NCBI GenBank assembly: GCA_017643365.1
Contig: JAEPNO010000011.1
Coordinates: forward strand, 62,001 to 126,000
Direction of reading: 5' to 3'
DNA length: 64,000 nucleotides
Source: Balneolaceae bacterium
GTDB lineage: Bacteria > Bacteroidota > Rhodothermia > Balneolales > Balneolaceae
The position numbers and the translations under genes are program-made. The notes beneath the pieces were generated by a model. It searched no databases and had not been told where the DNA came from. It saw only the letters and a list, made by a program, of their open reading frames with translations. Every line of letters starts with the position of its first letter. The first letter of the stretch is position 1. Positions 22,733 through 51,049 of this stretch are shown piece by piece.

Positions 22733-22785
22733 CAGTACAGACGTAGCATGCTACGTCTGTACTGAATCATGCTACGTCTGTACTG
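22733..22785. repeat. REP-type palindromes upstream of RAYT 1
   Basis: 22733-22764 is a perfect 32-bp palindrome with half-site CAGTACAGACGTAGCA and centre GCATGC. A further partial copy follows (CATGCTACGTCTGTACTG, ending 22785). The arrangement CAGTA plus hairpin is the same as in the REPs at 23180-24000 and 63601-63770, placing it in the RAYT repeat family. It ends about 90 nt before the transposase start. Confidence 0.8.
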
Positions 22786-22872: not shown

Positions 22873-23481
22873 ATGAATTCAAATAAGGGGAAATATAGAG
22901 CGGATAGCCATAGAGCAGATTGGTGGGATTATTCTGTTGCCGCAGCCTATTTCATTACAATATGCACGAAAAATATGCAGCATTTTTTCGGTTCGATTGA
23001 TAGTGATTTATTACAAGTGAATCATCAATTGTCGGAGATTGGTGAGATTGCGCAAAATGAATGGATAAAAACACCAGATATCAGATCTGATATGAATCTG
23101 TTTTTAGGTGAATTTGTGGTGATGCCCAATCATTTTCATGCCATAATATGTATTGGCAGCAATCAATTTAATGTTAATTCCAGTAGAGACACGATGCCTC
23201 GTGTCGAGAATAGTGAATTAAAGAACAATTCAGGCAATGTCGCGAAGCATCGCGACGGTACTGGAAATCAAAAGCGGTTTGGTGCACAATCAAAAAATTT
23301 AGCATCTATAATTAGAGGTTATAAATCATCCGTTACAAAAAAAGCCCGACAATTAAACCCGGACTTTGCATGGCAGGCGAATTATTACGATCGCATTATT
23401 CGAAATGAATATGAATACGAACGCATTGCAGAATATATTCAGAATAATCCCATGAATTGGGGCAAGGATAAATTTAGATAG
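22873..23481 (+). CDS. REP-associated tyrosine transposase (RAYT 1) with REP DNA inside the ORF
   Basis: 202 aa, Y1 transposase of the IS200/IS605-like HUH superfamily. I start at ATG 22873 (MNSNKGKYRADSHRADWW); the frame upstream begins only with TTG. The core is AAYFITICTKN, the HUH motif MPNHFHAI (His87, His89), the RAYT-specific NLASIIRGYKSSVT, and the catalytic tyrosine in NYYDRIIRNE (Tyr171/172), ending IQNNPMNWGKDKF. Such enzymes nick and join REP hairpins in single-stranded DNA. The linker between the HUH motif and SIIRGYK (residues about 103-131) is encoded by two inverted REP hairpins (23180-23264), so the gene carries its probable substrate within its coding sequence. Confidence 0.9.
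   Translation: MNSNKGKYRADSHRADWWDYSVAAAYFITICTKNMQHFFGSIDSDLLQVNHQLSEIGEIAQNEWIKTPDIRSDMNLFLGEFVVMPNHFHAIICIGSNQFNVNSSRDTMPRVENSELKNNSGNVAKHRDGTGNQKRFGAQSKNLASIIRGYKSSVTKKARQLNPDFAWQANYYDRIIRNEYEYERIAEYIQNNPMNWGKDKFR
23180..23264. repeat. Inverted REP pair embedded in the RAYT 1 coding sequence
   Basis: Plus orientation: CCAGTAGA then hairpin arms GACACGA (23188-23194) and TCGTGTC (23199-23205) around loop TGCC. Minus orientation: hairpin arms GTCGCGA (23239-23245) and TCGCGAC (23250-23256) followed by GGTACTGG (23257-23264), so on the minus strand it also begins CCAGTA. Each has the conserved 5' tag plus hairpin organisation of classical REPs (GTAG tetranucleotide plus stem), arranged tail to tail as in a BIME. 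The frame is open through both. Confidence 0.85.
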
Positions 23482-23510
23482 TGGTTACCAATAAAACATA
23501 GATATTCAAT

Positions 23511-23816
23511 AATTCCAGTAGAGACACGATGCCTCGTGTCGAAAAAAGTGAAATAGCAAACAATTCAGGCAATGTTGCGAAGCATCGCGACGATACTGGA
23601 AATCAAAAGCGGTTTGGTGCACAATCAAAAAATTTAGCATCGATTATCAGAGGATATAAATCATCCGTAACGATGAAAGTGCGACAATTAAACCCAGATT
23701 TTGCATGTCAAGCGAATTATTACGATCGCATTATTCGAAATGAATATGAATACGAACGCATTGCAGAATACATTCAGAATAACCCCATGAATTGGGGCAA
23801 AGATAAATTTAGATAA
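23511..23816 (+). pseudogene. 3' fragment of RAYT 1 (duplicated remnant)
   Basis: The frame from ATG 23529 (95 aa, MPRVEKSEIANNSGNVAKHR to the end) repeats the C-terminal half of RAYT 1, including SIIRGYKSSVT and NYYDRIIRNE but lacking the HUH motif, so it cannot be an active transposase on its own. The apparent start is the ATG inside the REP hairpin (CACGATGCCTC). The frame has stayed open, meaning the duplication is recent or the fragment is used. Confidence 0.85.
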
Positions 23817-23850
23817 AGGTTACTGATAAACAATAGTTATTAGAAAAGCC

Positions 23851-24000
23851 CCAGTAGAGACACGATGCCTCGTGTCGAAAAATTAAATAGAAAAACAGCG
23901 CCAATTGTCAATTATTCGAGTAAAGACACGATGCCTCGTGTCGAAAAAGTGAATTAACGAGCAATTCAGGCAACGTCGCGAAGCATCGCGACGATACTGG
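23851..24000. repeat. Further REP copies downstream of the RAYT fragment
   Basis: Plus-orientation REP at 23851-23876 (CCAGTAGAGACACGA, loop TGCC), a variant at 23918-23942 (GAGTAAAGACACGA...), and a minus-orientation REP at 23975-24000 ending CGATACTGG. Right after it, ATACGCCTGTACTGA (about 24004) is half of the other hairpin family seen near RAYT 2. Over 23180-24000 I count four plus- and three minus-orientation REPs. Confidence 0.8.
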
Positions 24001-24061
24001 AAATACGCCTGTACTGATTCATGCTTCGCCATTACAGAAGCATAAATTCAATCAGGGCAAT

Positions 24062-50064: not shown

Positions 50065-50090
50065 ATGGAGAAATATTCAAATAATATGCC

Positions 50091-50120
50091 CGTAGGTGCA
50101 ATTCATGAATTGCACCTACG
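50091..50120. repeat. Perfect 30-bp palindrome (REP-like, GTAGGTGCAATTCA family)
   Basis: Half-site CGTAGGTGCAATTCA, perfectly inverted. It starts with a GTAG tetranucleotide and is preceded by ATGCC. A weaker echo follows (ATAATTCATGAATTCAACGAAGG). A near-identical element lies at 52317-52346, so the pair brackets RAYT 2 and the DUF2334 gene. Confidence 0.8.
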
Positions 50121-50281
50121 GATCGATAATTCATGAATTCAACGAAGGTATCTCAAAATTAAAATCAAATTTCAGAATCGAAATATTTAACTATAAGGCA
50201 AACTAGGTCGGGTGAGAAGGGAAGGGAGCCTCTTTTTTATTGAATTCTGAAAGGAATTGCTATGGGATCCATCATACAGGT

Positions 50282-51049
50282 ATGAACAAAAAGTACCCAA
50301 ACAGAAGATCCATCCGACTACAGTCTTGGAATTATGCATGGCCGGGTTATTACTTTATCACTATTTGCACCAAAAATTTTGAGCATACTTTTGGCGAAGT
50401 TCAGCATGGAATTATGAAATTGAATTCATTTGGCGAAATTGCCCAGCAAGAATGGATCAAAACTCGGGAAATCCGTGATAATGTGCTTTTGGATGAATTT
50501 GTGATTATGCCTAATCATATGCATGGAATTATTCGAATAATAGATAAAGGGCCAAGTCGAGATTCCGTACAGGCGTATCGCGAAGGAAGTGAGATCGTAA
50601 GGGCGTATCGCGATACGCCCGTACTCCCAAATCGCGATATGTTCGAATTCCCAAATCGCAATACGCCCATACATCCTCGCGATAAGCCCCAATTGCCAAA
50701 TCGCGATAAGCCCGCAAACAATGATCGAGGTAAGCCCTCTTACCAAAAAAGCAATCTTCCACTAAATGATAAGGTCGTGCCTGAAAATCCGAATGAGAAT
50801 AATATCAATCATCAATTCCCTAAACGCTCGTTTAAATCGCCTTCAAAAAATCTCGGAGCTATCATTCGTGGCTATAAGGCTGCTGTTACCACTAGAATAA
50901 ATAAGAGTCGAAAAGTAAAAGGAATGCATGTCTGGCATAGAAATTATTACGAGCACATCATTCGCAACGAAGCAGCCTTACATAGTATCAGATATTATAT
51001 AAAGGATAATCCTGAAAAATGGGAAATGGATCGGTTTCGTAAGTTGTGA
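50282..51049 (+). CDS. REP-associated tyrosine transposase (RAYT 2) with in-frame REP-derived repeat array
   Basis: 255 aa from ATG 50282 (MNKKYPNRRSIRLQSWNYAWPG); the upstream TTG at 50240 is unlikely. Y1 transposase core: GYYFITICTKN, HUH motif MPNHMHGIIRI, RAYT motif SKNLGAIIRGYKAAVT, catalytic Tyr in NYYEHIIRNE, and the C-terminus YIKDNPEKWEMDRF. The linker between HUH and AIIRGYK is about 80 residues, much longer than in RAYT 1, and made of repeats (NRDMFEFP, NRNTPIHP, NRDKPANN) encoded by GGCGTATCGCGATACGCC-type hairpin DNA. As in RAYT 1, this linker is where REP sequence sits. The TIR-less, single-copy layout suggests a domesticated enzyme maintaining REPs. Confidence 0.88.
   Translation: MNKKYPNRRSIRLQSWNYAWPGYYFITICTKNFEHTFGEVQHGIMKLNSFGEIAQQEWIKTREIRDNVLLDEFVIMPNHMHGIIRIIDKGPSRDSVQAYREGSEIVRAYRDTPVLPNRDMFEFPNRNTPIHPRDKPQLPNRDKPANNDRGKPSYQKSNLPLNDKVVPENPNENNINHQFPKRSFKSPSKNLGAIIRGYKAAVTTRINKSRKVKGMHVWHRNYYEHIIRNEAALHSIRYYIKDNPEKWEMDRFRKL
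50567..50714. repeat. REP hairpins and 24-nt in-frame repeats inside RAYT 2
   Basis: GTACAGGCGTATCGCG (50567-50582), then a perfect 20-bp palindrome with half-site GGGCGTATCG (50601-50620) followed by GTAC. The core TCGCGATA or TCGCAATA recurs at 50608, 50632, 50656, 50677 and 50701, spacings 24, 24, 21 and 24 nt, all multiples of three. The encoded unit is eight residues, roughly N-R-D-x-P-x-x-P. A sixth, degenerate copy follows (GATCGAGGTAAGCCC). Confidence 0.8.

Follow-up and report, generated by a model that had tools for sequence, protein, structure and literature searches.

A RAYT gene of a Balneolaceae bacterium with REPs of its own type in frame in the linker between its HUH and tyrosine motifs

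The Balneolaceae RAYT gene described here, RAYT1, carries REPs of its own type in frame, in the linker between the HUH motif and the presumed catalytic tyrosine of the encoded protein. The best explanation of this arrangement, to which we give a probability of roughly 0.6, is that the enzyme's own REP has been inserted into a disordered loop, where it is tolerated and recurrently renewed. The gene lies in a 64,000-nucleotide stretch of one contig, hereafter the window, and a sequence-only reading of that stretch had already placed the REPs in the linker, with both the hairpins and the reading frame being confirmed in our analysis. The main features of the gene, in window coordinates, are as follows.

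22873-23481, plus strand: RAYT1 (TnpAREP) coding sequence, 202 aa from ATG
23128-23139: NHFH (HuH) motif of RAYT1
23178-23266, plus strand: in-frame REPIN, with an outer stem TTCCAGTA/TACTGGAA around two REP hairpins
23183-23205, plus strand: REPa, with GTAG at 23183-23186 and the hairpin GACACGATGCCTCGTGTC at 23188-23205
23239-23261, minus strand: REPb, the inverted partner, with the hairpin GTCGCGAAGCATCGCGAC at 23239-23256 and the foot GTAC, not GTAG
23371-23373: conserved Trp codon
23434-23436: presumed catalytic Tyr codon

The RAYT1 protein matches the NCBIfam family REP_Tyr_transpos with an E-value of 7.8e-13, under the curated (strict) cut-off of the family, and a Pfam search of the ORF returned zero matches. 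Its AF2 model (mean pLDDT 83) has the Y1 HUH transposase fold, and the best PDB match of the model is 4er8 (E 1.8e-6), a RAYT bound to a REP hairpin. This comparator structure is the E. coli TnpAREP with its REP, which has the HUH and Tyr core in common with RAYT1 but is 17% identical to it and comes from a gene that its REPs flank; for the E. coli protein's subclass, 2.2, no linker insertion like that of RAYT1 has been described. In the RAYT1 model, the linker from the HUH strand to the next helix has a pLDDT of about 50 and is flanked by well-ordered elements, so that REP insertion at this position is probably harmless to the predicted fold.

The REPIN lies in frame between NHFH on one side and the SIIRGYK helix and the catalytic Tyr region on the other, with CCAGTAGA at 23180-23187 directly 5' of the REPa hairpin and GGTACTGG directly 3' of the REPb hairpin. 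As DNA it folds at -21.2 kcal/mol (z = -5.0), a stability equaled by 0 of 200 shuffles, and the window holds eight matches to the REPa pattern where 0.02 were expected and six to the REPb pattern where 0.06 were expected. The best single hairpin of the linker, of 7 bp, is not significant against codon shuffles in the palindrome scan (p = 0.11), and a search of Rfam found no known RNA family at the locus; the significance of the RAYT1 REPs rests on the doublet, its repeats at the locus, and the homologs, rather than on a single hairpin. Like the REPINs of Bertels and Rainey (2011, PMC3116915), the doublet consists of two inverted REPs that fold as one larger hairpin. It differs from them in lying inside a RAYT coding sequence, in its second REP having GTAC, and in lacking a dispersed genome population. 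The initial description of two inverted REPs holds for the hairpins, both of which are present, but the canonical GTAG is found in the first only, the partner having GTAC and its counterparts in the downstream copies GTAT, and because REPb has no GTAG, at most one of the two internal REPs would be a canonical substrate.

The same description was incomplete for the locus, in that it gave the internal REPs but omitted the REPs downstream of the gene (23851-24004) and a duplicated half gene.

23510-23840, plus strand: incomplete tandem copy of 23175-23505 that begins at the edge of the REPIN and holds the C-terminal RAYT half (ORF 23529-23816)
23851-23876, plus strand: lone downstream REPa, CCAGTAGAGACACGATGCCTCGTGTC
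23914-24004, plus strand: downstream (third) REPIN, oriented like the internal one (RNA fold z -4.4)

All REPINs of the locus have the identical orientation, and the downstream REPs, of which the first has GTAG, count as REPs of the GT[AG]G type next to the gene. In the half-gene copy, the conserved Trp codon TGG has become TGT. The start of the copy coincides exactly with the REPIN, suggesting REP-REP recombination as its likely origin, and the layout is what would be expected after unequal recombination between the internal REP and one downstream. A deletion from a downstream REP to the internal REP of a neighboring, once complete copy, removing the N-terminal half of that copy, would give the same layout, and the codon differences between the half copy and RAYT1 (14 synonymous and 7 nonsynonymous) are too few to separate duplication from deletion. 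The earlier proposal of REP-driven gene rearrangement thus acquires support of a structural kind, through what appears to be a REPIN-bounded half-gene duplication.

Relatives were sampled as 97 RAYT genes from the family of RAYT1 and from named Bacteroidota, Chloroflexota, Gammaproteobacteria, Patescibacteria, and other genomes; the sample was gathered by RAYT1-like queries and so is not unbiased for all RAYTs, and a few records are present in both sources. A hairpin score of at least 8 was reached by 77 of the 97 linkers and by 10 of the 97 equal-length upstream coding controls, and a codon-shuffle p of at most 0.01 by 66 linkers versus 3 controls. The typical linker REP in these genes has the form GTAGAGAC...GTCTCTAC, and in L015, the closest relative found (56-58% identical), the linker contains a 42-nt palindrome that is perfect. 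Linker length, linker sequence, and REP copy number vary widely, and functional-looking relatives with short, REP-free linkers, for which the sequence-only reading had advised looking, do exist (e.g. L053, L066, L051). A REP at least 85% identical to the linker REP was found within 2.5 kb in 26 of 81 cases, and the near flanks of the other 55 contain no closely matching REP. A plasmid search returned only four RAYTs, all distant.

The linker is not the only site. In nine relatives (L028, L029, L031, L032, L055, L062, L075, L096, and L099) REP-like hairpins are found also, or instead, in the N-terminal part, in the turn that follows the FGEI strand. Linkers have 5.3 hairpins per kb, compared with 0.95 for the N-terminal and 0.55 for the C-terminal parts.

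Two features of the linker REPs were observed alongside these counts. In 20 of 47 linker REPs with both feet, the palindrome extends 2-11 bp past the GTAG/CTAC feet (e.g. in L039, L046, L061, L104, and L015), where the flank should be unique sequence, a pattern that copying of the flank into an inverted repeat might produce. In 16 of 97 linkers, versus 1 of 97 controls, there are short tandem repeats in frame, frequently beside the REP, for example in L095, L112, L109, L084, and L083.

The comparison of relatives indicates that what is conserved in linker REPs is the DNA and not the peptide. Hairpins with GTRG lie in frame 0 in 44 cases, in frame 1 in 19, and in frame 2, the one in which GTAG would be read as a TAG stop, in none. 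In gene pairs at 60-70% protein-core identity, the REP cores are 74% identical versus 36% for the fourfold sites of conserved residues, the baseline for REP-core identity from shuffled palindromes being 34%. In 14 gene pairs, REP cores at least 90% alike are read in different frames; for example, GTAGAGACGCGATTAATCGCGTCTCTAC is read as VETRLIASL in L070 and as RDAINRVST in L093. Cores more alike than fourfold sites, together with the same REP in different frames, mean that the linker REP is kept or renewed as DNA. REP type also tracks protein similarity (Mantel r 0.46, p 0.0005), though since the linker is inherited with the gene this correlation alone is no proof of coevolution, and the fourfold-site comparison was added on account of that limit.

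These data bear directly on the reading in which the hairpins are chance palindromes or follow from protein-level conservation of the linker peptide, to which we give almost no credence. Similar peptides, VETxxxxSL and RDAMxxVST, do recur among the linkers, and the best RAYT1 hairpin taken alone is not significant, but both peptides are one DNA in two frames (as in L070/L093 and L048/L049), the linker is variable in length and sequence and predicted to be disordered, and the doublet is far above chance. Chance palindromes were ruled out by the pattern counts, the relatives versus their controls, and the z-score of the doublet fold, and conservation of the linker peptide was ruled out by the frame and fourfold-site tests. 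Conservation at the protein level only, the outcome named at the outset as the one that would count against the REP interpretation, was thus looked for, and conservation of the DNA across two frames was found instead.

A second possibility is that the REPs are passengers, inherited with the gene from a single ancient insertion and neither renewed nor functional. Inheritance of the linker with the gene would lead one to expect part of the correlation between REP and protein, and REPs are found in many unrelated genes (Di Nocera's group, PMC3733652). The REP cores, however, retain their identity where fourfold sites are near saturation, the same REP is found in different frames of related genes, and insertions occur at two separate loops, all of which makes the passenger reading doubtful.

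A selected function in cis is harder to set aside, and we regard it as a possible if tentative alternative. Such a function could be the linkage of enzyme and REP in horizontal transfer, self-nicking as self-limitation, or control of expression by an mRNA hairpin. In its favor are the conservation of the DNA far above fourfold sites, the stability of the doublet also as RNA (z -4.4), the tracking of protein similarity by REP type, and the many genes whose linker REP lacks a closely matching copy in the near flanks. Against it stand the functional-looking relatives that have no REP and the variability of site (linker or N-terminal turn), copy number, and length, which tolerance fits better than does a positioned control element. 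With the same reserve, it may be suggested that the intragenic REP is a selected, built-in copy of the substrate, traveling with the enzyme and matched to its specificity, that would let the enzyme act on its own gene by limiting it, reshuffling it, or reseeding from it.

Recurrent, tolerated insertion remains the preferred reading, and we infer from these sequences that REP insertion into the RAYT gene occurred as an event. A REP would enter its own RAYT gene through the action of the enzyme, or by recombination with nearby REPs, and copies that landed in tolerant loops without creating a stop would survive. Repeated re-insertion or conversion would keep the hairpin matched to the enzyme, and recombination of direct REPs, those within the gene with those downstream of it, could give a REP-bounded duplicate of the C-terminal half. 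The 55 of 81 linker REPs that have no near-flank match, and the confinement of REPa and REPb to one locus, imply that the donor copy is not always visible, and plain purifying selection on the hairpin could produce a similar pattern of preservation.

The genome has three RAYTs of the RAYT1 kind, all with REPs in the same loop, and the REPs are three different ones.

50282-51049, plus strand: RAYT2 coding sequence; its linker likewise holds REPs, of a different type of its own
50566-50737, plus strand: array of REPs in the RAYT2 linker, made up of GTAAGGGCGTATCGCGATACGCCCGTAC and half copies
contig 2, 59356-59988, minus strand: RAYT3, with the linker REPs GGTCAATTCATGAATTGACC and GGATGATTCACGAATCATCC

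The RAYT2 linker REP is GGGCGTATCGCGATACGCCC, accompanied by several half copies. The HUH-to-Trp distance is 77 aa in RAYT1, 136 in RAYT2, and 111 in RAYT3. The HuH motif of RAYT3 is NHIH and that of RAYT2 is NHMH, which deviates from NH[IFV]H, and RAYT2 also has WH and YIKDNP where RAYT1 has WQ and YIQNNP. Dispersed REPs were counted through pattern searches only; by these, the first RAYT3 REP is found at 22 places in the genome and the RAYT2 REP at five, and no dispersed population of REPa or REPb, such as an active REPtron would have, was found, close copies being confined to the RAYT1 locus. In several copies of the RAYT3 type, both arms of the stem are changed (GGTC/GACC, GGAC/GTCC, GGCC/GGCC). 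Of the dispersed copies that were inspected, most fall in no open frame of 80 aa or longer and two fall in open frames of just 84 codons; the check is not valid for one locus (L137), which was cut off-centre. The genome also has a RAYT of another kind, L146, whose HUH-Tyr region is short; within its 3.4-kb locus just one palindrome has a stem of 9 bp or more, and it is unlike a GTAG REP.

The presence of REPs inside the gene is not in itself new, having already been published for TnpAREP subclass 2.4 (Quentin et al. 2018, PMC6006769). That subclass, which is RAYT group 4 of Bertels, is described there as common in Cyanobacteria and Bacteroidetes, with the motifs NH[IFV]H, WQ, and YIxNNP and with HuH and Y separated by an insertion that varies, and in-frame REPs within the gene are said to predominate in it and to typify it. 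RAYT1 would belong to this subclass by the features compared, these being NHFH, which fits the first motif, WQ within WQANYYDR, YIQNNP, which fits the third, the HUH-Tyr insertion, and GTAG REPs both beside the gene and in frame within it; set against the published account of the subclass it has no essential difference, its REPs occurring only at their own locus. The N-terminal REP site was not found in the main-text passages on the subclass. To that qualitative description the present analysis would add the measured conservation of the DNA, the reading of REPs in two frames, the second insertion site, the occurrence of three enzyme-REP pairs within a single genome, and the REP-bounded half-gene duplication, with the excess of DNA over protein conservation and the second site sharpening it. 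In-frame REPs in other genes (PMC3733652) and the Rickettsia RPE elements are likewise palindromic insertions tolerated in protein loops, but their host genes are unrelated, whereas the host in RAYT1 encodes the presumed mobilizing enzyme and the site recurs. Other groups of TnpAREP have been shown to cleave REPs (PMC8266576), and a literature search for a cleavage test of a subclass 2.4 enzyme found none. RAYT-REP pairs are models of a domesticated transposase that sustains a population of tiny repeats, and with the presumed substrate within the enzyme's own open frame, the co-inheritance of enzyme and substrate becomes directly testable. Every linker REP also offers an immediate candidate for the cognate substrate when a RAYT is uncharacterized.

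Other palindromes lie near RAYT genes of this genome. Upstream of RAYT1, at 22733-22785, there is a perfect palindrome, CAGTACAGACGTAGCATGCTACGTCTGTACTG, with an extra half copy; it has one more copy in the genome, which bears a compensated change, and no cognate RAYT was identified for it. Upstream of RAYT2, at 50090-50121, the palindrome CCGTAGGTGCAATTCATGAATTGCACCTACGG resembles the RAYT3 REP rather than that of RAYT2. Finally, a RAYT-like match (L147, G000:C33:94806-95147) lies within a 1213-aa open frame, and the same locus has a 22-nt palindrome, ACAAGGAGTTGCAACTCCTTGT.
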